Below, piece after piece: positions 396 through 63,129 of a stretch of DNA of 64,000 nt. The position numbers and the translations under genes are program-made. The notes below the pieces were generated by a model. It was not told where the DNA came from, made no database searches, and saw nothing but the letters and a program-made list of their open reading frames with translations. This DNA is from Lepidostoma basale (lineage: Eukaryota > Arthropoda > Insecta > Trichoptera > Lepidostomatidae). Within the stretch, counting starts at the first letter, position 1, and every line of letters begins with the position of its first letter. The stretch is from the NCBI GenBank assembly GCA_022606425.2, contig JAHDVF020000211.1, positions 3,906,001-3,970,000 of the forward strand, read 5' to 3'.

Positions 396-808
396 CTTGG
401 ATCAACTCTTGGAAAGAATCCACCAAGTACAAGATGCTTAATACGAAGATTTAGTAAATTAATATCAAACGTTTATCCAAATCACATTTGATAATGCGTT
501 AGAAAGGAGAAACAAATCATTGACAGACGGCAGTGATAGGCTGTTTAGTGTCAAAATAAATTTGTGAATTAATTCCAAACTCGTGCACTTTGTAAGGTTT
601 CATGTTTTGAATTTTATTACCTTTTTTAATTAATGATTATTGTGTGTAATTAAATATTATGTTTTAATCGAGAGTGTGTAGTTTTTCCGTTGTTGTGTTA
701 ATTACAAATTAAGTCGCAGAATTTTTAAAAATGTTTTCGAATGCGTTTCGTTATAAGAATCGTTCCAAATATAAACATTTAATGATCACATTTGAAAAAA
801 AAAATCTA

Positions 809-968
809 CTATTCGTATTTTTACAACATTTTTTAAAGACATGTTTCGGTTGTGACCTAAACTTTTTCGATGTATAATTTTTTTTAAATTTGGTAAAATT
901 TTGTACATTGAAAAAGGTTGGGTCACAATCGAAACATGTCTTTAAAAAATGTTGTATAAATACGAAAT
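809..968. repeat. HhFB-G hammerhead-like foldback
   Basis: This is a 160 bp imperfect inverted repeat: ATTCGTATTTTTACAACATT at the left returns as its complement at the right. The right arm (903-945) reads TTGAAAA, A, then GGTTG-GGTCA-CAATC (stem II), then GAA and ACATGT plus C. The left arm gives the same order on the minus strand with a perfect CAACC partner. Core positions 3 and 8 are U and A instead of C and G. Stem I pairing is weak, so activity is doubtful. Confidence 0.6.
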
Positions 969-1080
969 GTAGTTGTATTTATTCAAATATGAATTAACAA
1001 TACAAAGAGGCGAATATAGAATAAATTTAATAATCAATTATCTCGTTCATGTGTTTATAAATATGTTTTGTGTATTTAAG

Positions 1081-10003: not shown

Positions 10004-10321
10004 TTTTTTCTTCTATATTCGCCATACTTTGTGTTGTTATGATGCTTTATTTATATTTTTCTTTTTTACATACTTTGTAAATACAACACTTAGGTATATT
10101 AGAAAAAAAAAATTACATAGACATGTTTCGAACAACCAGTCATTCTTCAGTAATACATATTATAAAGATACATATTTAAAATATTGTATAATTGTTTACA
10201 TGATCTTTATAATATGTATCACTGAAGAAGGACTGGTTGTCCGAAACATGTCTATGTAATTTTATTATTTTTTAATATAAGTGTTGTATATACAAAGTAT
10301 ATAAAAAAGAAAAAGAGAAAT
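10004..10321. repeat. HhFB-B foldback
   Basis: Both arms carry the TTTTATATACTTTGTATATA-like outer word and ACATAGACATGTTTCG. The right arm core (10221-10252) reads CTGAAGA, A, GGAC-TGGTT-GTCC, GAAACATGT, C. The one-sided tail TTCTATATTCGCCATACTTT is at the left, so the element is in minus orientation. CATAGTT at 9997-10003 and 10322-10328 is a possible short target duplication. The short arm frames encode nothing real. Confidence 0.75.
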
Positions 10322-11165: not shown

Positions 11166-11532
11166 ACTGCAGTCGACGCGCGTTAGAGCGGACTTTTACA
11201 GCTCACCTATAAAATATCGCCGACAAAGACCGTATGAAAGATAAACTAACAAGCGGACAATAAAATCGGCGAAATGTGTTACTTAGGCGCGTCACTGTTT
11301 GCACTCCAAACAGCGCACCCGGTGGAGTATGCAGTGAGAAATCATATCCTGTACTCATTTAATAAAACGCTTAAATTTTCTTGTACCTAATCATCATAGA
11401 AGAACGAACTTACAAAATTCGCCATACTTTGTGATGTAGATGTTTTGTATTTTTTTTTTTAAACTTTGTATTCAACACTCACTTTAAAAAAAAAATACAC
11501 TTGTTTCGGACTACCCAGCCCTTCATCAGTTA

Positions 11533-11937
11533 TCAGGGGATTCTTTGAGAATTCCGTCATCTTGGAGGCTATCCATCTTTATGTTCCGGATGGTTATATT
11601 CGACAGCGTCAGCACAGACTGTTTTATCTCCCAACATGCAGAACCAACCTGCCTCTGGTGATGCCGGTGGGGAGAGCAATCAAACTGCTGAACATGATCG
11701 CTTCGGAGATCGATGTCTTTCATATTCGTGAAAGTACATTCAGAAGACAAATACTCTTGACTTTGGAGAGTGTCTTGTATTCCTAATGTCGAACCATCTC
11801 TCATGCGTTCCTGTTATTATATATTTATTATGTTTTACCTGTTCTCAAAAGATGCCTTAAACTATAATATATAAAATGTTTGTAATGTCTTTTGAGAAAA
11901 TAAACTGATTTGATTGATTTGATTTGATTTGATCAGT
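11533..11937 (+). pseudogene. Joc-c LINE 3' end nested in HhFB-B
   Basis: Begins at TATCAGGGGATTCTTTGAGA (homologous to about 41489) and encodes the ORF2 C-terminus up to the stop at about 11784, then the 3' UTR and GATTTGATTTGATTTGAT tail. ATCAGT occurs immediately left of the insert and again right of the tail, a target-site duplication. 5'-truncated. Confidence 0.8.
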
Positions 11938-11967
11938 GATATTATAATACATAGATATTTAAAATAT

Positions 11968-12009
11968 TATCACTGAGGAAGGGCTGGGTAGTCCGAAACA
12001 TGTTTGATA
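11968..12009 (+). ncRNA. Hammerhead-like ribozyme (HhFB-B, right arm)
   Basis: Stem I TATCA (11968-11972) pairs with TGATA (12005-12009). Core CTGAGGA, one extra A, stem II GGGCT/AGTCC (one G-U pair), GAA, stem III palindrome ACATGT, and U at the cleavage position 17. Stem III is self-complementary without a loop, as in dimer-forming hammerheads of Penelope-like elements. The extra base before stem II departs from the textbook core. Confidence 0.6.
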
Positions 12010-12245
12010 TTTAATTTTAATTTGTTTAAAAAGTGAGTGAAGTATACAAAGTATAATATATATAGATATATAATATATTTTAAATTCTAAATTACCATGA
12101 TTTTAAACACTTTTTTTCTACTTTTTAAAAAATGCAAAAAACCGTGTATAATTACATAAAAATCATTATCTAAAATACACAAATATATTTCTAAAGTATA
12201 CAAAAAAATCTTATTAATTATAAATTAACCTATATTAGTGAATTT

Positions 12246-13800: not shown

Positions 13801-14685
13801 ATATTTTTTATATCCTAAAATTAAAATTAATATAAGTAAAAAATAAGAGCCACCACTGTCGAGAATTCAATGGAGCGACTACCCCATGGGGAAGGGTTGC
13901 TAATGATTTCGGACTTGCACAAGCTTGAGCCACTGACCATTGCACCCGGACACTTTTGTTCGCCACCGTGTGGACATACGTGTAGACGTGTAACTGGTGC
14001 ATGTGTATGCAACACTCACACATAAAGGACATCCGTTTTGTTACAGCTTCTATTTTTTTCCCGTCGGTCAAAAATATTTTAAAAATAGAATAACGTAATA
14101 ACTGTTAATACAAATGTAATAAAGCATAGCCATAATCTTGGAGAAGGAAGCAAAAAGGATAGACGGACACACTATTCTATTCTGAAATATTTATTAACCT
14201 ATTCTGAATTACGAGTAATACTGTTTTCTGGGATCTTGGGAAAATCATTGTAATTCGTCTTTATCGAACGACATTTCGGATTATCATTGCAGTCTCCATC
14301 TTCAGGGTGGTTATAAATTTGTGGTGGATAACGTATGCGTAACTCCTTCTTCACTATGCCGTGTCAACCCTGTACGCATATTTAATTTTTAAGCTCTTAG
14401 CTTGATCAATTATTGAAATGTTTTATAGAGTGACGTTTTCATAGATTTTCCTAGATTTCGTATTCTACCCAATTCACTGCCTTATGTTTTCTTAACCGTT
14501 ATTTTTTCATTACGTACTCTTTCGCCCGGCATTCTATTCACATTCGTCACATTCGTCTGAGATATGCTTTCCCCTTTTTCTTCGGCTTTTTTTTTGTTTT
14601 TATCTATTTCATTTTATCTGTCTTTTGCCTAGTCTTTGCTTTACATTTATTTTCAGAGTAAATATATAAAAATAGTAAATAAGTT
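13801..14685. other. Unassigned DNA
   Basis: A moderately GC patch (13850-14060) has overlapping minus-strand frames of about 60-90 codons with no recognisable motif. The rest is AT-rich. No gene supported. Confidence 0.4.
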
Positions 14686-14686
14686 T

Positions 14687-15080
14687 CTTCTATGTTCGCC
14701 ATACTTTGTGTTGTATGTGTTTAATGTTTCTTTTTTATATATACTTTGTGTACAACACTCTAGTTTATTAAAAAAAAAAAATTAAATATCAAACATGTTT
14801 CGGATTAACCAGCCCTTCATCAGTGATAATATATTATATTAATATTTAAAATATTATTAAAAAGGTTTACAAATATGGTCAGTTTTGACAGATGTTATAA
14901 TATATATCATCTGTCAAAACTGACCATATGTGTAAACAATTTTATAATAATTTAAATATTTATATAATATCACTGATGAAGGACTGGTTAGTCCGAAACA
15001 TGTGTGATATATATATATTTTTTTTTAATAAATATGAGTGTTGTATACAAAGTATTTTGTATAAAAAAGAAACAATAATA
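14687..15080. repeat. HhFB-B foldback
   Basis: The tail TTCTATGTTCGCCATACTTT is at the left. The arms pair over about 190 bp each, including the inner palindrome ATGGTCAGTTTTGACAGATG and its complement at 14880-14935. Minus orientation by tail position. Both arms carry hammerhead cores. Confidence 0.8.
14967..15010 (+). ncRNA. Hammerhead-like ribozyme with G at position 17
   Basis: Stem I ATATCA/TGATAT, core CTGATGA, extra A, perfect stem II GGACT-GGTT-AGTCC, GAA, ACATGT. The base at the cleavage position is G (15004), normally excluded, so this copy is predicted not to cleave. Confidence 0.55.
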
Positions 15081-22320: not shown

Positions 22321-22527
22321 TTTTTAATCAAAATAGTGAAAATATATTGATTAAAATAATGTTTTTACAACTTAACAAAAATGAATTTGATAATTTACAT
22401 AGCGCCATTTTTATGAATTGATCTTCACAAGGGCGCTGCAGAAAATTGTCTGTTTTATGAACTAGTTAACCTAAACATATTAAATAATTATATAAATAAA
22501 ACAACTTTGTATTTAACCACGGTAGGG

Positions 22528-22588
22528 TTATTATATTGATGCCAACTAGTTTCGCTTGGACCCAAGCTTCATCAGGGCAGTATAATAA
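22528..22588 (-). ncRNA. Hammerhead-like ribozyme, F left arm
   Basis: The minus strand has the same layout as 22657-22717: stem I TTATTATA/TATAATAA and TGCC/GGCA around an internal loop, core CTGATGA, extra A, stem II GCTTGG/CCAAGC, GAA, ACTAGT, U17. The two ribozymes face opposite ways in the palindrome. Confidence 0.7.
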
Positions 22589-22656
22589 CTAATAATATAA
22601 TAACTAACTAAATAAATAAATAATAATAATAATATAATAACTTACTAAATAAATAG

Positions 22657-22717
22657 TTATTATACTGCCCTGATGAAGCTTGGGTCCAAGCGAAACTAGT
22701 TGGCATCAATATAATAA
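22657..22717 (+). ncRNA. Hammerhead-like ribozyme, F right arm (best example)
   Basis: Stem I has an outer helix TTATTATA (22657-22664) with TATAATAA (22710-22717), an internal loop (C against TCAA), and an inner helix TGCC (22666-22669) with GGCA (22702-22705). Core C22670-TGATGA, one extra A, perfect stem II GCTTGG-GT-CCAAGC, GAA, stem III ACTAGT (self-complementary, no loop), then U22701. The predicted cut is 22701/22702. The internal loop is where extended hammerheads contact loop II. Confidence 0.7.
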
Positions 22718-23334
22718 CCCTACCGTGGTTAAATACAAAGTTGTTTTATTTATATAATTATTTGAAATGTCTATCCACAAAGTGAGTGCTTTATATGAAG
22801 AACTAAACATATTAATTTAGTATGAAGGCTGCACCTAACACAGTCGATCAACATCTACACCAGGTAAGGACAATAAAAAGGTGCGTTTTGAGTCTCAATC
22901 TAAACTCTGACGGATTCTCAATGCACTTTAGGTCTGCTGGAAGACTATTTCAGGCTGAAGGTTTCCGGTCGGTCGCCAAAGTTTGTGTGAGGATAGCGTT
23001 TTGGCACAGAATAGATAATAGAAACACGTCAGAAAAATGAAGGAGGAAAAGGGAAGAAAAATATATAGATAAATAAACGACTTAAAAGATTAGTTTTAAG
23101 ACGCTAGATTATGAAAAAAAGCTTATAATAAAACTTGTTAAAATATATGTAAAGTAAAAAATGTATTATAATATTGTTTTCCACGATTTCCGAAAACTTT
23201 TGGGTTAGATAAATACTTGAAAATTCAATAATAACCTCAATTTTGATACTATGGAGACCATTGTGGCTATTTGTTTATAAAATCATCGATATTTATAAAA
23301 TATTAAGATGTTTACTAACTTACCACCAAGCCAT

Positions 23335-24289: not shown

Positions 24290-24700
24290 AAACAAAATAT
24301 TTAAAAACCCGACATGTTTCGGAGGATACCTCCATCTTCACGTGTAATTTCCATTCACAATCAAATGCAAATTAATAATTTATTAATTTCTATATAATAT
24401 TATGTCTTTTCAAATGTATGTTTTTTCAAATTTATTGTTTTATTTTTATTATTATTTCATATTATCATCATGTACTATTATTATTTAGTTCGTAGTGTTA
24501 AAAAATATGTAGTATTACTTAAAACAAATAGCCCAGGTTAATTTTTAAATTTGAATTATTGTATCGAATTTTAAATGCGATTTTATATTAGTTTTTCATT
24601 GTTTAGTTTTTATTATATTTTTACATCTGAAGATGGGTATCCTCCGAAACATGTCGTGTTTTTTAATATATATTTTTTATATATATATATTTTAATAAAC
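24290..24700. repeat. HhFB-C hammerhead foldback
   Basis: ACATGTTTCGGAGGATACCT at the left faces GGGTATCCTCCGAAACATGT at the right. The left arm read on the minus strand has stem II GGAGG-TAT-CCTCC with core GTGAAGA. The right arm has core CTGAAGA, stem I ACAT/GTGT and a 2-base deletion in stem II. It lies just 3' of a Penelope-like fragment in that fragment's orientation, so it could be its terminal repeat. Confidence 0.7.
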
Positions 24701-24972
24701 ATAAAATTCTTAGGTGTACTCGTATATATAATAACAAACAGTGAAATCAGAGTAGGGGGTGCGAGAAGGAAAGGGATAATTGGAACAAATGTTTACCTTT
24801 GAAATAGCAGTATTCTAAGAAATACAAATTAGGAGGAGAACAATGGATAAATGGATAAATAAATAAAAATGTTTGAAAATAGCAAATTAGTCGGAAATAT
24901 ACATAAACATTATAAGGTCTATGAGGTATACGTGGATAACAATGCTCACAACAAAAATAAGGAAATACCAAC

Positions 24973-25262
24973 TTATACAGAATTAATTAACTTCACTGGA
25001 AATAAATTTAGTAATGGGCTAAACGATAAGTTAATTTGGTTATTAATGATATTTTGTTTACTATTTATGGCCTTTTTGATCTCCAAGGCTTCTAAATTGT
25101 TTAATCTAATTCCTATATCATTTCTGTGAATTAATTTTGCACCTGATTTAAAAGAATGGTCGAACTCTATTAGGTGGTTTGCGAATTTGGAGAAGCCATT
25201 TGATTTTAGGCATTTAAGATGTTCTTTGACGTTCAATTTCCTAAGTAGGTATCTTCGCTAGT
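24973..25262 (-). pseudogene. Penelope-like element ORF, C-terminal fragment
   Basis: The minus strand from about 25262 to the stop near 24973 encodes NVKEHLKCLKSNGFSKFANH, then LIEFDHSFKSGAKLIHR, a G-x-R-L-N-x-L-E-A-L-E-I-K-K stretch and NQIN...PLLNLF. EHL...FA-H-L...H plus G-R-L-N-x-L-E-x-L-E-I-x-K is the usual end of Penelope-like ORFs, within and after the GIY-YIG endonuclease. The catalytic GIY-YIG start and the reverse transcriptase are missing: a stop lies just upstream. The overlapping plus-strand frame is a shadow. Confidence 0.55.
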
Positions 25263-27214: not shown

Positions 27215-27460
27215 TATTTTTTTAATTTTTGTACACCACAGGTCGTTTGAACCCAATTACTGTATACAATTTGATTGTAGCTATTCCATTAATTCCTATG
27301 GCATGCAATAGGTAGCTTATCTATCGATATTTTATTGTCACGGGAATTCTGCACCAGATCAAAGACAGTGTGCCAATCACATTGCCCTCGCCAGGAATCG
27401 AACCCGGAACCTTCGGGGTGGCAGTCAATGCACTTACCACTCGGCCACGTAGGTCGTCAT
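27215..27460 (-). mobile_element. SINE-t, second head subtype
   Basis: Minus strand head GACCTACGTGGCCGAGTGGT, AAGTGCATTGACTGCCACCC, B box GGTTCGATTCC, then the common body and CAAATTGTATACAGTAATTG tail. The head differs from most copies and matches 57600-57690. Confidence 0.75.
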
Positions 27461-28550: not shown

Positions 28551-28565
28551 ATTTATTTAGAGATT

Positions 28566-28800
28566 ATTAAATAATTAATACGAATGAAAACGTCAGATTT
28601 CTAGAAGTTTTATTATATTTTATGGGAATGACATGTTTCGCCCTTCTAAGGCATTATTAAATGTGCACATTTGATAATGCCTTAGAAGGGCAAAACATGT
28701 CATTCCCATAAAATATAAGAAAACTTCTAGAAAACCAACGTTTTCATTCGTATTAGTTATTTAACATGGAGTTTTACATCGTTGTTCAAGAAACAATAAA
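28566..28800. mobile_element. HhFB-A foldback with 12 bp target-site duplication
   Basis: A 235 bp insert between TATTTAGAGATT at 28554-28565 and 28801-28812. Left arm ACGAATGAAAACGTCAGATT...GACATGTTTCGCCCTTC; right arm is its complement plus a one-sided tail (ATGGAGTTTTACATCGTTGT). The right core TTGATAA, T, GCCTT-AGA-AGGGC, then AAAACATGTC (G12 changed to A). The left arm on the minus strand has GAAACATGTC but TTAATAA. Confidence 0.85.
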
Positions 28801-28892
28801 TATTTAGAGATTGTTTACTAAGTATACGGTTTTCAAACCTTCCTACTGAAGTAACCCATTTTAGGTTGCATTTATACAGATTTTAGCAGAAT

Positions 28893-30840: not shown

Positions 30841-31212
30841 GTCTTTTTTATTTTTATATACTTTATATATACAATACTAACGTTAAAAAAAAAATACATA
30901 TCAGACATGTTTCGGACAACCAGTCCTTCAGTGATACTAATTTAAAATATTATAAAATTGTTTACAAATATGATCAGTTTTGACAGATGTTATTTATATT
31001 ACAAAACTGATCATATTTGTATACAATTTTATAATATTTTAAATATGTTTCTTTATAATATGTATCACTGAAGAAGGACTGGTTGTCCGAAACATGTCTG
31101 ATATGTCATTTTAATTTTTTGAACGCTAGTACTGAATATAAAAAGTAGGTATATAAAAAAGAAAATGACCAATAAAACATCTACAACACAAAGTATGGCG
31201 AACATAGAAGAA
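30841..31212 (+). mobile_element. HhFB-B foldback with 13 bp target-site duplication
   Basis: A 372 bp insert between AAGTATAATATTT at 30828-30840 and 31213-31225. The left arm starts with a TTTTTATATACTTTATATAT word; the right arm is its complement. An inner palindrome (TGATCAGTTTTGACAGATG and complement) forms the turn. The one-sided 45 nt tail ACAACACAAAGTATGGCGAA is at the right, so this copy is in plus orientation. Confidence 0.85.
31063..31103 (+). ncRNA. Hammerhead-like ribozyme (HhFB-B)
   Basis: Stem I TATCA (31063-31067) with TGATA (31099-31103). Core C31068-TGAAGA, extra A, stem II GGAC-TGGTT-GTCC, GAA, ACATGT, C31098 at position 17. All core bases conform except the one extra base before stem II. 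Confidence 0.65.
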
Positions 31213-33507: not shown

Positions 33508-33667
33508 TAGCTTTTTCGGTTTAACATTGATTAATTTGTGTATAAAAAATATTTATAAAAAATATTTATGAATTTGTTTCGCCTTGCGAATGAGATTGAG
33601 AATGCCCCACAAGGCAAAACAAATGTGTAACTATTATTTATATATTTTATTATAACCGAAAAAGCAG
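33508..33667. repeat. HhFB-H hammerhead-like foldback
   Basis: AGCTTTTTCGGTTTAA at the left pairs with AACCGAAAAAGC at the right. The right core reads TTGAGAA, T, GCC-CCACAA-GGC, AAAAC (position 3 U, 8 A, 12 A). The left arm on the minus strand has AAGGCGAAACAAA. Stem III lacks the usual palindrome. Degenerate. Confidence 0.5.
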
Positions 33668-34081: not shown

Positions 34082-34428
34082 TTCAGGTTTACTTAATAAA
34101 TCAGTCTAACTTCCCATCGCATATCTTTGTGTTACATACCTACATCATGTACTGCAGACAAAATGGGGAAGTGTGTCCGGACGAACGAGGATTGGATTCT
34201 GGGGTGCAGTATTTTTAGATTCTTGCGCTCATCCTGGGAGAGGGTCGAATGTTTATTTATCTCGCAGGGTCCTGCTCGGGGACGTTTAATTGTATAGTCA
34301 TCTTAAATATGTCGGAGGGTGGTGAATGGTGAGGAAGGACTCAAGGGGTGTCCTTGGAAGTATACGAGTACATTGAAAATGTTACCTTTTTCTATTGAAA
34401 TTAAATGCATTTTTAAGTAATATTGAAT
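34082..34428. other. Unassigned, partly GC-richer DNA
   Basis: 34140-34340 (ATGGGGAAGTGTGTCCGGAC) matches nothing in the window and has no convincing frame. Confidence 0.35.
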
Positions 34429-34429
34429 T

Positions 34430-34750
34430 TTATAAGGATTAATTGTATCTCAATAGAGACGAAGATGTAAATTGCTTTCTGGGAACAGAAGGTGGTGGCC
34501 GAGGCGCTTACAGGACTAATGACCTGTCATTGGTTAGGTTGAGCGATCGCTTTATGTTTAACAACATTCCCCATTCCGCCTTCCTTATGACCACCACGTC
34601 TGACAAATTTTTGGAACTTGTATATATGGTAGGATCCACGCCTATCTTTAAATTTTTTAATTCAATCTACACTAGCGTCATATATTAAGATTGGAAAGCA
34701 TTAAGCATTACATCTTCGTCTCTATTGAGATACAATTAATCCTTATAAAA
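34430..34750. mobile_element. MITE-like element with long terminal inverted repeats
   Basis: Left end ATTAATTGTATCTCAATAGA and GACGAAGATGTAA; right end is the exact complement, giving inverted repeats of about 38 bp including TTATAAGGATTAATTG. About 320 bp, no transposase. The frame crossing it is not a gene. The related copy at 7495-7785 is inverted. Confidence 0.75.
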
Positions 34751-34842
34751 TTAAAATAATTTTTCTGCAATGGGTGAAATCCAGTATCTGCAGTACATGT
34801 CTACAAGAATTTGTATACATTCAAAATGTTGTTGTAATATTG

Positions 34843-37545: not shown

Positions 37546-37600
37546 TCTATATACGCCGTACTTAGTGTTGTTATGATGGTTTATTTATAACAACAACAAC

Positions 37601-40395
37601 AACAAAATTTTAGCTCCTAGGATGATAGAATGCATGAAAGGATACGAATGTGTGAATCCTAGACTAATGTGGATCCGCTTCAAAATTGGATTGACAAGAG
37701 TACTACTCATAATTGGGTATGCTCCTGTTAATAGCGAAGATGAAGCTGTGAAAGATGAGTTCTGGGATAGAGTAAACGAGATAGCAGCGAGTAAAAATGC
37801 GAACGAAAGAATTATTATAGCAGGAGATTTGAATGGATGGGTAGGAATTCAAAGGGCTGGTTATGAAGAATGTCTCGGAAAGTATGGTGATAGTAGAACG
37901 AATGATAATGGAAAGAGATTGCTTGGTGTGTGCCTGGAGTGGAGCCTCTTTGTGTCAAACACGATGTTTGACCATAAGAGGATCCACCAATATACATGGG
38001 AGAGAGGAAATGAAAGGACGACGATCGATTACGTCATCGTGGACTCTAGATTACGGGCGGACACTGTAGATACCAGAGTGTTTAGAGGGGCCGAACTCGG
38101 AACAGACCACTTTTTGGTGGTAACAAAGGTAAATTTGTTCCAAGGCTGGCGCACCAAGAGGAACAAGACAGTGACCGCCCCGTCTAGAGTAAAAGTTGAA
38201 AAACTACAAAACGATGGCGTAAAAGAGAGTTTTATGATGAAAGTGAATGATAGGCTTAGTGATCGAGAATCGGAATGTATAAGCATAGATGAGACCTGGA
38301 AGAAACTGAAAGAAAGTCTATGTGAAGCAGCGAAAGAGGTATGTGGTACATGTGTGCAAGGGAGGAGAAATGGAGATGCTTGGTGGGATGACTGTATAAA
38401 AAATCTTGTTAAAGAAAAGAAGGATGCATGGTTAAATATGTTGTCTGTGGATAAAAGTGATTGTGTGAAATATCAAAGAGCGAAAGAAGCGTACAAAGTT
38501 TGCAAGATGAACGTCAAGTTGAAAGTGAGAGCGAAAAAGGATAAAATGAAGGAGGATGACGGACTTAAGATGACAAATCACTTCCAGAGCAACATAAAAA
38601 TGTTCTGGAAGGAAGTCAAAAAAGCCCGAAATCCTCCCGAAAGTGGTTGTGCGAAAGCAATTTTAAGTAGTGAGGGAAGAATGATTACTGATTTCAAAAG
38701 TATACAAGGAAGATGGATGGAGTACTTTAAAGATATGTATGGCAGTGAAATGACTGAAGATTCAATAAGAATGAGCTTTACAAATGAGAGTTGCACGAAC
38801 AGCGGAAGTGAAATTACTGAAATAAATTTGAAAGAGATAGTAAGTGCTGTAAGATGTATGAAAGGTGGAAAAGCTGTCGGATATGACTGTGTAGCCTTAG
38901 AGTTTATCAAAAACGGTGGGCCGGTGGTTTCAGCATGGTTATATAGACTCTTTAACCAGTGTTTAGAGGAGGGATATACGCCGCTCGACTGGAGGAGGGC
39001 TGTTATCATGCCTCTTTATAAGGGAAAGGGGTCTCGTATGGACTGTGGAAATCACCGGGCAATAAGTCTATTAAGCGCCGTTGGTAAACTCTACGGTCGA
39101 ATTTTAATAGAAAGAGTAAAAAAGACGACGACTGAAAGAGTATGGGATGTGCAAGGCGCTTTTATGACCGGAAGAGGTTGTATGGATCAGATTTTTGCAC
39201 TTCGAACGCTTGCGGAGAAGTTTATGGCCAAAAACCGTAAGCTTTTCTGTGCGTTTGTCGATTTGCAAAAAGCCTATGATCGAGTGAACAGAGAAAAACT
39301 GTGGTCAATCTTGTCCGAATACGGAGTGAGCACAAAACTGATACGGGCGGTTGCTTCTCTCTACGAAGGGAGCACTGCCAGTGTTAGGGTAAATGGGGAC
39401 ATCACGCCCTGGTTTGATATCACGAAGGGTGTTAAGCAGGGCTGCGTGATGTCCCCTTGGTTGTTCAATCTGTATATGGACAAGTGTATGAAAGAACTTA
39501 AAGGTATAAATGCTGGTGCTAAGATGAGTGATCTGTCTGTAAACTGTCTGCTTTACGCGGACGACGCCGTTCTCGTTGCGGATAGTGCGGACGAATTACA
39601 AGTCTTGGTGTCGAGAATGTATGAGGTATGCAAGTCGAACGATTTAATGATGAATGTCGGAAAGTCAAAGGTGTTAGTTTTTGAAAGGGAAGAGCAAATG
39701 ACAGTTTGTAATATAAGTGTAAATGAAGAGAACTTGGAACAGGTGAGCGAATTTGTGTATTTAGGTAGCATGTTCACAGCGGATGGCCGAACGGACAGTG
39801 ATATTGAAAGAAGGGTTGGTGCGGGTAACAAAGTGAATGGAGCTTTAAAAGTAGTTTTTGGAAACAAGAATTTATCAATGAAAGCGAAAATGGCCGTTCA
39901 CAATGGAGTTCTGGTTCCAACCCTTATGTATGGAAGCGAAGCATGGAACTGGCAGAAGAAAGATGAGAGCAGAATAAATGCGGTAGAGATGAGGTCCCTA
40001 AGACGTATGTGCGGTAGAACGATGTACGACAGAATCTCAAATGCTGATATTAGGAAAGAGTGTAGAGCGAAAGAAGGTATTATGAACAAAATTATGAAAG
40101 GTTCGCTTCGTTGGTTCGGACATATGGAGCGCATGGGTGAAGAAAGAATGGTTAAAAAGTATACGTTAACAATGTAAATGGAGTAAGGAGTCGAGGTAGA
40201 CCGAGGAAAACATGGCATGACCAAATTAATCAAATATTAAAAGTTGGTCATGTCAGAAGCCGGAAGAATCGACGTGCGTGTATGACTCGATGTATGAATG
40301 TGGAGGAAGCTAGAGAGGTGTGCCAGGATAGAGTAGTGTGGCGGTCCATTCTCTCTGCCTACCCCTGCGGGGAAACGGCGTGATGGTTTTGTTTT
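37601..40395 (+). mobile_element. RTE-a LINE, nearly full ORF2 and 3' end
   Basis: Element body from about 37601, just after an AACAACAACAACAAC run and a family B tail scrap (37545-37585), to GGCGTGATGG at 40376-40385 and a GTTTT/GTTGG tail. The first part of the endonuclease is missing, so this copy is 5'-truncated. The 3' 300 bp is the part repeated at about twenty other places in the window. Confidence 0.9.
37622..40156 (+). CDS. RTE-like LINE ORF2: AP-type endonuclease and reverse transcriptase (5'-truncated, frameshifted)
   Basis: 844 codons to the shift. Endonuclease: A-G-D-L-N-G at residues 67-72, DYVIVD near 135, and the T-D-H triad at 161-163. The N-terminal catalytic Asn/Glu part is absent. 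Reverse transcriptase: WRRAVIMPLYKGKG and GNHRAISLLS (finger), AFVDLQKAYD with catalytic D547, GVKQGCVMSPWLFN near 602-615, and YADD at 645-648. C-terminus: YGSEAWNWQKK, VEMRSLRRMCG and RWFGHMERM. A one-base deletion near 40158 brings an early stop at 40174; the next frame continues uninterrupted to TGA at 40381-40383. These enzymes nick target DNA and copy the element RNA in the nucleus (target-primed reverse transcription). The clade call as RTE-like is by motif look, not a tree. Confidence 0.9.
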
Positions 40396-45815: not shown

Positions 45816-46112
45816 ATATTAAATAATATGGTTTATAGAGAGTAAAGAATTAATCATTTCATCTCCCTTCAAACTTTAGGTGCGTCATTATTTAGAATTT
45901 TACCAATGTGATCATAAAGACGAGGATGGAGGTTTATATTTAATAGTGACATTTGATTCGAGTCGCCTTCTTAATATAATATTTCTCTGTATGCAAAATT
46001 AAATAATTATTAATTATCCTAGAGATTTGAGGTCTAGTTTGAAAAAATAACATGTACAAATATTACATCTTTCAATTAAACAGTTCATTGTTTTGGTCGA
46101 AAGACTATGATA

Positions 46113-46556
46113 TTTATTACTGTTAAAATTTAAATCACTGTTATAATATCACAATTTCTTTTTAATCTCTGAGAGTGTCGCGACAGCTGTTTTGCCAACC
46201 GATTTTGGCATCATCAGGTGTTACAATAAACTTTTTAGTGTACAATAAGCTTTTTATTTTATTTACTCCAAATAATCCAATTGCCTTTTTTTTTAAATAA
46301 ATAAAAAATAAATAAATGAAATGAAATGAAAACAGCTAAGGTGGGTAACCTTCTATGTATATGTTTCTTTAACTATTTGTTAGTTTGTATTTGTATTAAT
46401 AATCAGTGTATGTTACCCTTATAACAAAAATAAATAAATATTAATATTGTAACACCGATGATGATGCCAACATCGGTTGGCGAAACAGCTGTCGCGACAC
46501 TCTCAGAGATTAAAAAGGAATTGTGATATTATAACAGTCATTTGAATTTTAACAGT
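46113..46556. repeat. HhFB-E hammerhead foldback
   Basis: TATAATATCACAATTTCTTT, CTCTGAGAGTGTCGCGACAG pair exactly with CTGTCGCGACACTCTCAGAG and TTGTGATATTATAACAG at the right. The left arm, minus strand: CTGATGA, T, GCCAA-AATCGG-TTGGC, AAAACAGCTGTC (G12 to A). The right arm: same stem II and GAAACAGCTGTC, but the first box reads ATGATGA after a 3-base insertion. Each arm has a different single defect. Confidence 0.8.
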
Positions 46557-46559
46557 AAC

Positions 46560-50597: not shown

Positions 50598-50760
50598 AAG
50601 TTCAATTTTTCTTCTATATTCGCCTTCACTTTGTGTTGTGGATTCAAATTTGAATAAATATAATTATACTTTGTATTACAACACTTTTTATTTTCACTGA
50701 ACTCAGACATGTTTCGGTTACAAGTAACCTTTATCAATGTATACAATTTGAACAATCAAA
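50598..50760 (-). repeat. HhFB-B-type left arm with U3/A8 hammerhead core
   Basis: Tail TTCTTCTATATTCGCCTTCA and outer arm as in family B, then on the minus strand TTGATAA, A, a perfect stem II GGTTAC-TT-GTAACC, GAA, ACATGT, C. Stem I begins CA/TG. The right arm is absent. The overlapping minus-strand frame is not a gene. Confidence 0.65.
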
Positions 50761-50844: not shown

Positions 50845-51068
50845 TTCTTGTATACAACAGGTTTGAACCCAATTACTGTATACATACACATTATTTTTAG
50901 CGATTATATTGATGATTCTCATGACATGTGATAGGTAGCCAATCTATCGCCATTTTATTGTCACGCGAATTCTACACCTGGGTGTGACAATCACACTGCC
51001 ATCGCCGGGAATCGAACCCGGAACCTTCTGTATGGAAGTCAGAGCTCTTACCACTCTGCCACGAAGGT
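50845..51068 (-). mobile_element. SINE-t
   Basis: Minus strand: CCTTCGTGGCAGAGTGGTAA, perfect B box GGTTCGATTCC, body, ATAGATTGGCTACCTATCAC and tail. One of the better-preserved heads. Confidence 0.8.
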
Positions 51069-52812: not shown

Positions 52813-52849
52813 TAATTAAAAATAAATACAATCCGCCTACAGACGTTTC

Positions 52850-54076
52850 CATTCAACGGAGACGGGATTGCTTAGAGTCATGTCAGATTTAGTACTGGCA
52901 AACGAATCGGGCAAATTGGCACTGCTCTCCCTTCTGGACATGAGCGCTGCGTTTGACACAATTGATCACTCATATCTTATCCAACGATTAGCGATCACGT
53001 ATGGTTTTAGAGGTAATGCCATAGACTGGCTAAATTCATATCTGTCGGATCGTTCACAAGCTGTGCAGCTAGCAGGTAAAAAATACTCATTTACTAATAT
53101 CCAATCTGGTGTGCCACAAGGCTCTGTTTTAGGACCCCTTTTATTTATCATGTTTACAAATGACGTTGCCAAAATAATAGAATCCTTTGGCCTCCTCTCA
53201 CATTGCTATGCTGATGATCAGCAACTTTATTTTTTCTGCAACCCTGACGACACCAAACATCTTACGTCAACAACTGTCAACTGCATTGATGCCATATCCA
53301 GATGGATGGCATCAAACAAACTTAAACTAAATCCATCCAAAACGGAATTTCTCTGGACTTCTTCCGCAAAGCGTCAACATCTTATCGATCATTCCTCAAT
53401 TTCAACAGCTGACAATGATATCGTTCCCAAAAACTCCACAAAGCTTCTTGGTGTTTATCTTGACGCAAATCTGTCTCTAAAATCCCAAATTAATAACACG
53501 GTCAGCGCTAGTTTCTTCCACCTAAGACGATTAAAATCCGTCAAAAGGAGTATTCCCCATGACACTTTCAAAACTCTTGTAAATTCCTTCGTTGTGTCAC
53601 GACTTGATTATTGTAATGGAATTTATGCAAACATTCCAAAACAACAAATAAACAAACTTCAATCTGCGTTCAATGCAGCAGCAAGGCTCATTAAAGGCAT
53701 TCCAAAAAAGTCTCATATAACACAACATCTCAAAGAACTTCACTGGCTTAAAAGTCCAGAAAGAATCCAGTATAAACTCTGCTGGACAGTCTTCAAAGCG
53801 CTACATGGAATGGCACCAAGTTATATATCTGAACTCTGTATAACGGACAGCCTAAATTCACGGAAATCCACACTTCGCTCGGCGAACTCCTCAGCAATAG
53901 GAAGATTAGTTGAGCCGAAGCGTTGCCCCAGTACAAATTTCGGGGATCGAGCGTTCGCGGTAGCCGGTCCATCAGCTTGGAACAATCTCCCTTCACACCT
54001 TAGATGCATAAATGATCCGACAGATTTCAGATCTAAATTGAAAACCCATCTTTTTCATATTTCATACCCAATTTAA
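52850..54076 (+). CDS. L2/CR1-like LINE ORF2: reverse transcriptase, 5'-truncated
   Basis: About 408 codons without a stop. The copy starts in polymerase motif 2 (HSTET-LLRV), then LLDMSAAFDTIDH with the first catalytic Asp, SGVPQGSVLGPLLFIMFTND, and YADDQQLYF with the two catalytic Asp about 114 codons after the TTG at 52868. Next come LNPSKTEFLW (thumb-like K-T-E), LLGVYLDANLSL, SRLDYCNGIYANIP, HLKELHWLKSPERIQYKLC and an AWNNLPSHLR end, the usual layout of L2/CR1 ORF2. No endonuclease or ORF1 is present because of 5' truncation. The open frame suggests a young copy. It copies its RNA into DNA at a nicked target. Confidence 0.9.
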   Translation, partial: HSTETGLLRVMSDLVLANESGKLALLSLLDMSAAFDTIDHSYLIQRLAITYGFRGNAIDWLNSYLSDRSQAVQLAGKKYSFTNIQSGVPQGSVLGPLLFIMFTNDVAKIIESFGLLSHCYADDQQLYFFCNPDDTKHLTSTTVNCIDAISRWMASNKLKLNPSKTEFLWTSSAKRQHLIDHSSISTADNDIVPKNSTKLLGVYLDANLSLKSQINNTVSASFFHLRRLKSVKRSIPHDTFKTLVNSFVVSRLDYCNGIYANIPKQQINKLQSAFNAAARLIKGIPKKSHITQHLKELHWLKSPERIQYKLCWTVFKALHGMAPSYISELCITDSLNSRKSTLRSANSSAIGRLVEPKRCPSTNFGDRAFAVAGPSAWNNLPSHLRCINDPTDFRSKLKTHLFHISYPI

Positions 54077-55131: not shown

Positions 55132-55368
55132 ATTAATATGTATGAAAAACGATAGTTTTCCAGGAGTATTATTATAATATTATATTTATGTATGACATGT
55201 TTTGCCCTTCTAAAGCATTTTCAAAATGTTCCGTCACATTTTGAAAATGCCTTAGAAGGGCGAAACATGTCATACATAAATATTATAGTAAAACTCCTTG
55301 AAAACTATCGCTTTTCATATATATTAATAATTTAATAGGGAGTTTTACATCATCGTTCAAGAAACATT
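55132..55368. mobile_element. HhFB-A foldback with 13 bp target-site duplication
   Basis: AATCATTTGATAT occurs at 55119-55131 and 55369-55381. The 237 bp palindrome has a right core TTGAAAA, T, GCCTT-AGA-AGGGC, GAAACATGTC and a one-sided right tail ending TCATCGTTCAAGAAACATT. Almost the same length as the 28.6 kb copy. Confidence 0.85.
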
Positions 55369-55995: not shown

Positions 55996-56340
55996 TATTC
56001 TAAATGAAGTTGCAACAACACCTGATGATGCCAACATCGGTTGATGAAACAGCTGTAGCGACTTTCTCTAAATGTGTATAAAATTGTGATATTATAATAG
56101 TGTTCAAATCATAAAAAAATAATTTATTTATTTGATAAATTATTGTAACACCTGTTGATGTCAATATCGGCTGACTTTCTTTAAATGTGTATTGTTATAT
56201 AAAAATTTTTGATATTGTAATAGTGTTCGAATAATAAAAAAATAATTTATTTATTTGATAAATTATTGTAACACCTCATGATGTCAACGTAGGTCGAGGA
56301 AACAGCTGTCGCGAAAAATAAAAATACAATTGTAATACAT
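55996..56340 (+). repeat. HhFB-E right arms in tandem, three units
   Basis: Units of about 122-127 bp, each with TTATTGTAACACCT-like lead, a family E core, and TTTAAATGTGTA/ATATTATAATAGTGTTC. Unit 1 (56010-56065): CTGATGA, GCCAA/TTGAT, GAAACAGCTGTA. Unit 2: CTGTTGA and a truncated stem II, GAAAC absent. Unit 3: CTCATGA, TCAAC...GTCGA, GGAAACAGCTGTC. Head-to-tail, same strand. Confidence 0.75.
56010..56065 (+). ncRNA. Hammerhead-like core, family E unit 1
   Basis: CTGATGA from C56022, extra T, stem II GCCAA-CATCGG-TTGAT (one mismatch and one G-U), GAA, stem III palindrome ACAGCTGT, A at position 17. Stem I is weak. Confidence 0.5.
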
Positions 56341-57599: not shown

Positions 57600-57690
57600 T
57601 AGTGTGACAATCACACTGCCCTCGCCGGGAATTGAACCCGGAACCTTCGGGGTGGCAGTCAATGCACTTACCACTCGGCCACGAAGGTCA
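57600..57690 (-). mobile_element. SINE-t head, second subtype
   Basis: Minus strand: GACCTTCGTGGCCGAGTGGT, AAGTGCATTGACTGCCACCC, CGGGTTCAATTCCCGGCGAG. Head only. Subtype shared with 27.2 kb. Confidence 0.7.
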
Positions 57691-60734: not shown

Positions 60735-60970
60735 TCTTGTATACAACTGGTCGCTTAAACCCAATTACTGTATGCACTTTTTTTTTTTAGCTATTATATT
60801 GATGATCCACATGATGAGGTAGCCAATCTATCGCCATTTTATTGTCACGTGAATTCTACACGCCAGACCAAAGACAATGTGACAATCACACTGCCATCGC
60901 CGGGAATCGAACCCGGGACCTTCGGTATGGAAGTCAGAGCTTCTAACCACTCTGCCACGAAGGTCGTCAA
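60735..60970 (-). mobile_element. SINE-t nested in HhFB-B
   Basis: Minus strand: GACCTTCGTGGCAGAGTGGT, perfect B box GGTTCGATTCC in CCCGGGTTCGATTCCCGGCG, body and tail with AAAAAAAAAAGTGCATACAG. Good head and tail. Lies in the loop of the foldback. Confidence 0.8.
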
Positions 60971-62369: not shown

Positions 62370-62627
62370 GTAGTTACGACAGCTTGAATGGTCCACGGCA
62401 GACCTGCCGGCACGAGAGGATTCAGCAACTCTGATAGCATCATGTAGGCCAGTGAGATGAACAAAGGTTGCAACAGATGCAACAAAAGCTTAAGTCTATT
62501 CAATCTGACGTATTACACGTACAACGATTGTTGACATTCTGCTACGTAGTCCATTGGCACATTATGTACTTTCATCTTAGATTTATACGCCAATTTTTTT
62601 TTTTAAAACAACCAGAAAATTAATAAC
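62370..62627. other. Unique-looking DNA
   Basis: 62385-62500 (CTTGAATGGTCCACGGCAGA) matches nothing in the window. No gene. Confidence 0.3.
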
Positions 62628-62942
62628 TGTTAATTCAAAAACTTTGTTTTATATCACAAATTGTATTTATTTTACTTTACGACAGCTGTTTCATCAATAT
62701 ATTTTAAATTAAAATATTTAAGTACCTAACTCAATTTCAGCAAGAAATTCAAAATTATATTAATTAAATTATTCAAATTGACTTAGGAACAAATACAGAA
62801 AAATTCTAAAAATTACGAAAATTTGACATTTGATATATATTTTTGTAACACCTGATGATGTCAACATTGGTTGATGAAACAGCTGTCGTAAAGTAAAATA
62901 AATACAATTTGTGATATAAAACAAAGTTTTTGAATTAACAGT
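62628..62942. repeat. HhFB-E foldback around a SINE-z-like piece
   Basis: Left arm 62628-62697 (TGTTAATTCAAAAACTTTGT, TTTACGACAGCTGTTTCATC), right arm 62855-62942 (its complement). Between them 62705-62815 (AAGTACCTAACTCAATTTCA, TCAAATTGACTTAGGAACAA) is the inverse of 42685-42775. Confidence 0.7.
62845..62900 (+). ncRNA. Hammerhead-like ribozyme, family E (intact core)
   Basis: C62852-TGATGA, extra T, stem II GTCAA-CATTGG-TTGAT, GAA, stem III ACAGCTGT, C62887 at position 17. Compared with GCCAA/TTGGC elsewhere, the second stem pair is U-A instead of C-G and the first is G-U, so pairing is kept. Stem I: CA/TG next to the core, then an internal loop and ATTTT/AAAAT. Confidence 0.6.
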
Positions 62943-63129
62943 TATAAAATGTTAAAATATCATAGTGTTTCGGCCAAAACAATGGACTATTTAGAAAATT
63001 AATAAAAAAACGACTGGTTCGAAATGTTTTCGGAAGAAATACTCTTCTACTTATTCGTCTACTTAGTATTATTTTTATTTGGGAAATACTGCAGAAGACA
63101 GACCGAGGTGGAGAACAACAATACATAAA

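Follow-up and report, generated by a model that had tools for sequence, protein, structure and literature searches.

Hammerhead foldbacks in Lepidostoma basale as inverted pseudo-LTR pairs of Penelope-like elements

Layout of the F foldback

We analysed 64,000 nt of contig JAHDVF020000211.1 of Lepidostoma basale (positions 3,906,001 to 3,970,000), referred to as the window and numbered from its first letter. Within this 64-kb window, positions 22484-22802 form a palindrome, the F element, which has a hammerhead motif in each arm on the arm's own strand. It is bracketed by exact 13-bp direct repeats, i.e., a left target-site duplication (TSD) CTAAACATATTAA at 22471-22483 and its right counterpart at 22803-22815. 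The right-hand part is a unit of 147 nt (22656-22802, plus strand), read below as a hammerhead-bearing pseudo-LTR (pLTR) plus tail, and such units are 95-100% identical among 26 chosen loci of the genome. The left-hand part (22484-22589, minus strand) is an inverted, tail-less pLTR copy that runs from unit position 106 to 1; it is the perfect complement of 22656-22761, with no mismatch between the arms. A junction filler of 66 nt (22590-22655) separates the two and shares no match of more than 18 nt with the fillers of the other compared F loci.

The right-arm hammerhead motif covers 22656-22718 (plus strand, predicted cleavage at 22701/22702), the left-arm motif 22527-22589 (minus strand, predicted cleavage at 22544/22543). 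In the right arm, stem I is made of GTTATTATA..TGCC and GGCA..TATAATAAC, and one extra base, an A at 22677 (plus strand), stands between A9 and stem II. The one-sided tail (22762-22802, plus strand) has an ATG at 22767 followed by 12 open codons, MSIHKVSALYEE, as read by eye. Two ACAAAGT motifs lie on the plus strand, namely site 1 near the tail-less end (22735-22741, -68 from the element end) and site 2 before the tail end (22777-22783, -26). When the full F transcript is folded, the predicted MFE structure (-184 kcal/mol) pairs the arms with each other and no hammerhead forms.

Hammerhead motifs

We scanned the window for a stem II with 4 bp or more, then GAA and an AC..GT stem III, allowing one mismatch in each. 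Among the 110 candidates, 17 have the core TGA and A9 together with C3-G8 or U3-A8, compared with 1 in total over 20 order-2 Markov sequences. A first strict scan with no room for an extra base had returned 2 motifs in the window, neither from the families described here.

We assembled an alignment (A1) of 16 window motifs of our own choice, in all of which a single additional base, A or T, separates A9 from stem II. The hammerhead structure pairs 81.6% of its cells, compared with 60.5% in shuffles and at most 49.6% when the structure is slid along the alignment. The covariation score is 0.585 versus 0.207, and covariation is seen in stem II, the C3-G8 core pair and the inner stem I pairs; A1 rows within one family are related, so that these measures overstate independence. 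The core pair 3-8 is C-G in 10/16 rows, U-A in 5/16 and broken in one, and the first stem I pair, represented by four pair types, is intact in all 16 rows. Across the 16 motifs, 95.2% of the stem II cells are paired, compared with 61.3% for stem I overall, and stem III has only 2 bp. Pairs with changes on both sides are no more numerous than in shuffles (332 of 500 reach the value), and further pair types barely exceed them (24 of 500).

A model built from the 16 A1 motifs only (R1) finds 35 places in the window with E<1e-5; 16 of them are the training rows themselves, 10 lie in the opposite arms of those copies and 9 in arms of other copies. The F element is matched at 22658-22713 in the right arm and at 22532-22587 in the left arm (E 1.6e-12). 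The Rfam hammerhead models gave no match in our searches, neither at the gathering threshold nor at E<=10; we suspect that these models are thrown off by the additional base ahead of stem II and by a very short stem III. The conserved core and the three stems of a type I hammerhead are present and a match to the Rfam model is absent.

An earlier note on this DNA, made from the letters alone, had described a hammerhead layout in both arms of F, a covarying stem II and many hammerhead families. All three points are borne out. The note had also proposed a check by hammerhead models, which went both ways: the Rfam models failed to match, while R1, derived from window motifs, does.

Among natural hammerheads, covariation from C3-G8 to U3-A8 is a known change (PMC3088659), and known alignments include insertions of up to one or two nt between CUGAnGA and the adjacent stems (PMC10085705). 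The window motifs have the U3-A8 change and a small insertion in common with these core variants; the base inserted after A9 is absent from the variants described in section 8 of PMC3088659.

Other hammerhead families in the window

Further foldbacks with a TSD belong to family A (28566-28800, plus strand, with a U3-A8 core in the right arm, TSD TATTTAGAGATT at 28554-28565 and 28801-28812 and a tail containing ATGGAGTTTTAC; 55132-55368, plus strand, 13-nt TSD AATCATTTGATAT), family C (30841-31212, plus strand, 13-nt TSD AAGTATAATATTT, with ACAACACAAAGTATGGCGAAC in the tail) and family G (46078-46557, minus strand, 13-nt TSD ACATCTTTCAATT; 62627-62992, plus strand, 13-nt TSD AGAAAATTAATAA). Two tailed family C foldbacks on the minus strand (10007-10321 and 14684-15078) have approximate ends and no TSD was found for them; the ends are likewise approximate for a family X931 foldback with U3-A8 core and GGCGAATATAGAA tail (786-1025, plus strand). 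We also find a family Y50 hammerhead unit with tail (50607-50749, minus strand, U3-A8 core, stem II GGTTAC/GTAACC), for which no inverted partner is seen, an inverted hammerhead pair of family X24 (24290-24676) and a degenerate hammerhead of family Q33 (33584-33644, plus strand), which shares 83% identity across 53 nt with the pLTR of L031 and L034, two copies of Penelope-like elements (PLEs). The TSDs of 7 out of 18 window elements reach 12 nt, compared with 49 of 2000 random placements.

The spacing of the two ACAAAGT sites recurs beyond F. Site 1 lies at -66 from the element end in C14, -72 in C10 and -68 in Y50; site 2 is found at -26 in C10, C14 and C31 and at -28 in Y50. C31 has the second motif only, G62 a variant of it, and the pair is not seen in A28, G46, X931 and Q33. 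The string ACAACACA, at which reverse transcription starts in an anole PLE (see below), is found in the tails of C10, C14, C31 and Y50 and not in C11.

Family A follows the same plan as F, with junctions that differ among the six window copies printed, and six truncated family A copies have one common tail end. We considered whether truncated copies start at the hammerhead cleavage site and rejected this, since the truncated family A copies start at several places.

Several other features of the window were recorded. Three direct tandem copies of the family G hammerhead, in retrozyme-like and not inverted orientation, occupy 56010-56322, with R1 matches at 56010 and 56263 and a weak one at 56140 (E 0.06). 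The arms of a family C palindrome (11440-12070) are split by a LINE fragment that ends in a TGATT repeat and is apparently a later insertion. An inverted pair with 48-nt arms at 34423-34755 adjoins the 12-nt direct repeat GTAATATTGAAT and shows no hammerhead motif, and a lone hammerhead-like match CTGAAGA-T-GGAG..TCC-GAAATGTC (14258-14317, minus strand, E 0.0016) has no recognised palindrome around it. Long open, LINE-like frames of RVT_1 reverse transcriptases (RTs) lie at 37577-40174 and 52826-54073; the best named relatives of an 866-aa RT frame of the window are moth and butterfly proteins (Phthorimaea, Parnassius, Tuta, Cydia), plus a few from other organisms. Finally, tRNA-like sequences at 50997-51068, 57617-57688, 60892-60964 and 27383-27454 are possibly SINE heads; two are called tRNA-Gly by ARAGORN, and the one at 27383-27454 stays below the Rfam gathering score.

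F insertions across the genome

For family F, 40 of 1648 first-look candidates of a genome search were scored (for family A, 40 of 5342). We compiled 26 distinct F loci, of which 16 come from the best 20 places (four being duplicates) and 10 were picked among places that are 95-99% identical over the right-hand unit.

The unit reaches position 145-147 at its tail end in all 26 chosen loci, a common end that is partly selected because the query included the tail; F pieces without tail are present in L021, L026, L027 and L028. An inverted partner arm is found in 24/26 loci, and none of these 24 foldbacks has the tail on both sides. According to BLAST, the tail-less outer end falls at unit position 105-113 in 20/24 foldbacks (118 for the window copy), with outliers at 63 (L022), 73 (L028) and 124 (L025). 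When shared bases are assigned to the TSD, the tail-less ends of the 21 loci with both partner and TSD lie at 98-110 (106 for the window copy). On the tail side, the arm retains the exact 36-nt hammerhead core in 24/26 loci; among partner arms 14/24 do so, some partners being truncated.

Exact flanking repeats of 9-15 nt are observed at 21/26 F loci, and none was found at the other 5; of 1000 placements drawn at random in the fetched loci, 16 have such a repeat. The view of the earlier note that the foldbacks spread as separate insertions is upheld.

Link to Penelope-like elements

We compared a PLE protein (P0169) with the 769-Mb assembly of the genome and scored 54 out of 684 candidate places. 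Stop-free frames of 800-873 aa are present at 19 of these 54, and some copies are in tandem and head-to-head order (C308, C502, C652). At L031 (763-1026) and at C308, C502 and C652, long-ORF PLEs stand head-to-head as multi-kilobase palindromes.

The most direct connection to F is locus L036. Here, an open frame of 331 aa is followed by a 3' UTR of about 275 nt and then by an F unit (97% over unit positions 1-102; R1 match with E 7e-14) whose 63-nt hammerhead is identical to that of the right arm of F in the window. The frame corresponds to the C-terminal part of a PLE protein: 113 of 120 fetched PLE proteins match it, best over residues 545-861 of 861. Pfam reports GIY-YIG at E 0.0007 (20.3 bits, under the cut-off of 22.6) and no match for RVT_1 in this frame, of which by alignment only the RT end is present. 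L036 is 5'-truncated and its tail-less F unit runs only to position 102; a complete F-type PLE with its own ORF start was not found among the fetched loci. Because an F unit with identical hammerhead follows PLE frame and UTR in L036, the F unit is, as judged from sequence, the pLTR of a GIY-YIG PLE.

The window itself holds related PLE remains on the minus strand. The C-terminal end of a GIY-YIG PLE ORF (24976-25233) is 44% identical to the L034 frame (79 aa, E 9e-10) and matches the C-termini of long PLE frames of the same genome, and a PLE 3' UTR (24694-24975) is 90-94% identical to the stretch that immediately precedes the F unit in L021 and L023. It is also the UTR that stands between frame and F unit in L036. 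In L021 and L023 the F unit is attached to a body matching 24694-25230, i.e., PLE C-terminus plus 3' UTR, at 90-94%. Compared with the 120 fetched PLE proteins, the window gave no match at E<=1e-3, and only the L034 frame of the same genome matched it; the 86-aa window peptide on its own scores poorly against them (best E 0.019).

Although built from window motifs only, R1 matches the pLTRs of the PLE copies L031, L033 (E 0.0009), L034, L036 and L037. It has no match in L032 and L035, which are short pieces around the junction of two PLE copies. L034 has a GIY-YIG frame (PF01541, E 5.5e-05, above cut-off), behind it a hammerhead pLTR and then the next ORF. The hammerhead of L031 and L034 has U3-A8 and an extra U, and about 70 nt further on is the ATG of an ORF that starts with MEFYQTKTSTIN. 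Family A tails read ATGGAGTTTTAC where this ORF starts; the ATG is kept in 5 of 13 printed tails and lost in the others, and the link of family A to the ORF is a short aligned stretch. L033 is a head-to-head pair in which the hammerhead overlaps an open frame; the anole PLE has such an overlap too.

The source family thus carries an ORF with RT and GIY-YIG, while the foldbacks themselves are ORF-less. The further PLE features are found in the foldbacks, i.e., a hammerhead motif in the pLTR, a head-to-head inverted pLTR with a one-sided tail of 30-40 bp (the two ends are about 40 nt apart), TSDs and 5' truncation. The earlier note had held the inverted hammerhead pair not to be a standard named class, which was wrong: its arms are identified here as PLE pLTRs, and by this sequence comparison the foldbacks are inverted pLTR pairs, a known kind that had been mis-filed. 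The putative hammerhead is a normal component of the pLTR.

Junction fillers and arm alleles

We inspected 24 F junctions. Three (L021-L023) hold PLE body, five are 1-7 nt long and 16 have fillers of 13-121 nt. Private fillers are seen in 13 of these 16, i.e., beyond L004, L005 and L006 no pair matches over more than 18 nt. These three loci have one common filler (matches of 55 and 24 nt), and therefore some foldbacks are copied from a foldback. In L004 (A/A at position 88) and L006 (G/G) the same filler stands in opposite orientation.

When 17 junctions of 10-199 nt are compared with both strands of unit positions 1-40, matching pieces of at least 8 nt cover 378 of their 866 nt. In 300 first-order Markov sequences, the covered length averages 34.7 nt and never exceeds 81. 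The fillers thus look like products of templated end joining.

At unit position 88, which is G or A, the arms agree in all 22 informative loci (15 G/G, 7 A/A). Position 65 behaves differently: T is found at L006, L010 and L020 in one arm only each time, and A in one arm at L013. The one-arm T could reflect recurrent mutation or two templates. Other arm differences at positions 1-107 are each seen at a single locus. Given the mostly private fillers and the ends and arm alleles of the F loci, the foldbacks probably formed for the most part per insertion.

Proposed mechanism and alternatives

Our main reading, to which we assign a probability of about 90%, is that each foldback is an ORF-less PLE insertion, i.e., a head-to-head pLTR duplicate with the tail on one side and a TSD of usually 12-13 bp. 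The observed insertion ends fit internal RT initiation at two sites, one for each target end. The PLE protein would make a staggered cut in AT-rich DNA, and reverse transcription would begin internally on the PLE RNA, close to the ORF start. A start at site 2 would give the end with tail; a start at site 1, which lies about 40 nt closer to the hammerhead, would give the tail-less end. Both copies would extend up to a common RNA 5' end, next to the hammerhead, and be joined with scraps of their own sequence, which would give the filler. The downstream ORF would be left uncopied because initiation is internal.

Our first model of two-ended priming from two randomly drawn RNAs was rejected: draws at 7/22 and 15/22 would leave about 43% of loci discordant at position 88, where 0/22 are. 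This agreement suggests one RNA, or one source, behind both arms. Position 65 is at odds with that, and its discordance opposes a single template for both arms unless the site mutates repeatedly. A tentative version of the two-site scheme, in which a PLE RNP dimer extends the two ends of the staggered cut from neighbouring start sites on a single RNA, is rather doubtful, and position 65 has lowered our trust in it slightly. If it is true, the asymmetry of the two start sites is obligate, such that pLTR insertions are head-to-head foldbacks with exactly one tail; one mechanism would account for both the PLE tail and the inverted pLTRs, and ORF-less pLTR foldbacks would be the default product of internal initiation.

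The opposite orientation of the L004/L006 filler is left unexplained by two start sites. It is better accommodated by a snap-back route, also leading to a PLE product, in which the first cDNA reaches the RNA 5' end, folds and extends on itself, and the hairpin is joined to the other target end: each daughter would look as if it had copied one arm of a mixed parent, and arms agreeing at position 88 in 22/22 loci are in line with it. The Adineta authors also prefer self-priming, but on an antisense template (PMC3846280). Copying of this kind should cross the tail, yet a tail on both sides is seen in 0/24 foldbacks, the clustering of 20/24 tail-less ends at 105-113 resembles a start site more than a stop, and the T in one arm at position 65 of three loci conflicts with arms that are identical at birth. 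We take snap-back as a real possibility that stays short of even odds. The shared filler of L004, L005 and L006, with its 55- and 24-nt matches, is also what one would see if a non-autonomous family replicated as a unit with PLE enzymes supplied in trans, as the earlier note proposed, and the many first-look candidates for F and A (40 each scored) point the same way. Outside these three loci, however, no two of the 17 fillers of 10-199 nt match over more than 18 nt, and the six printed family A junctions of the window differ as well, which makes replication as a unit unlikely as the general route.

Two readings depart further from a PLE pLTR. The elements are palindromic, short and repeated and have TSDs, as would MITEs or Foldback DNA transposons with small hairpins by chance; such elements have TSDs of fixed length and terminal inverted repeats at both ends, whereas the F loci show variable TSDs of 9-15 nt and an asymmetric tail at one end, 5'-truncated family A copies retain the tail end, and the F unit follows a GIY-YIG PLE frame. 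We consider this reading hardly credible. The motif could, on the other hand, be a protein or DNA-hairpin signal with an accidental likeness to a hammerhead. The Rfam result and the weak stem I (61.3% of cells) fit such a view, as does the anole PLE hammerhead, which is dispensable for insertion in vitro (PMC11167929). It is nevertheless very improbable in the light of 17 motifs versus 1 over 20 random sequences, of the first stem I pair kept in 16/16 rows with four pair types, and of a C3-G8 to U3-A8 covariation that is known in natural hammerheads (PMC3088659).

Comparison with known systems

Hammerheads, head-to-head inverted pLTRs, a one-sided tail of about 30-40 bp and TSDs have all been described for PLEs (PMC3846280, PMC11167929, PMC8969392). 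Metazoan retrozymes are small non-coding retroelements with type I hammerheads for which use of the PLE machinery is proposed (PMC7229834, PMC7761336). They are described as direct repeats that yield circular RNA (PMC7229834, PMC7761336), whereas the foldbacks of the window are inverted pairs. Direct hammerhead repeats are thus not what the F loci show, as 24/26 are inverted pairs; one direct array, of family G, exists.

The lizard PLE (Poseidon of Anolis, PAc) has a hammerhead at the ORF start, and its RT initiates internally at two sites that bound the tail; both target strands are cut and extended, and targets are AT-rich (PMC11167929). Its hammerhead needs protein (PMC11167929). The RNA reads CUGAGGA-U-GCC..GGC-GAAACGUC, with the RT start at +111-118, ACAACACA, an AC-rich site (PMC11167929). 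PAc and the window motifs have the same extra base between A9 and stem II, a U in the anole PLE (PMC11167929). Such hammerheads, common to the lizard PLE and the families described here, escaped the Rfam models in our searches, and PLE hammerheads are therefore probably under-annotated. PAc is described as tandem pLTR-ORF-pLTR repeats, and the portion of that account used here does not mention ORF-less head-to-head foldbacks (PMC11167929).

Neither did we find an account of ORF-less PLE foldbacks among the literature matches listed, and scans of IMG/VR with the C tail and the family A arm gave 0 matches each. Among the matches listed, the pLTR-only foldback, which seemingly arises per insertion, appears to be new in detail, as do the data on its ends and joints.

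The closest parallel is given by the Penelope families of Adineta vaga, which have head-to-head inverted pLTRs with a 31-bp tail on one of them, TSDs of 8-10 bp, palindromes at the inverted junction and solo pLTRs (PMC3846280). Their inverted pLTRs are described in elements with an ORF or a captured gene and at low copy number (PMC3846280), whereas pLTR-only pairs are frequent in the window. In the part of the Adineta paper that we draw on, the origin of inverted PLE pLTRs is left open (PMC3846280). The genome of L. basale is a natural experiment in this respect, since its near-identical insertions have clustered ends and mostly private fillers, and their two arms allow an allele-by-allele comparison. 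The F loci can thus discriminate between insertion models and map start sites, which opens a route to studying how PLEs insert.
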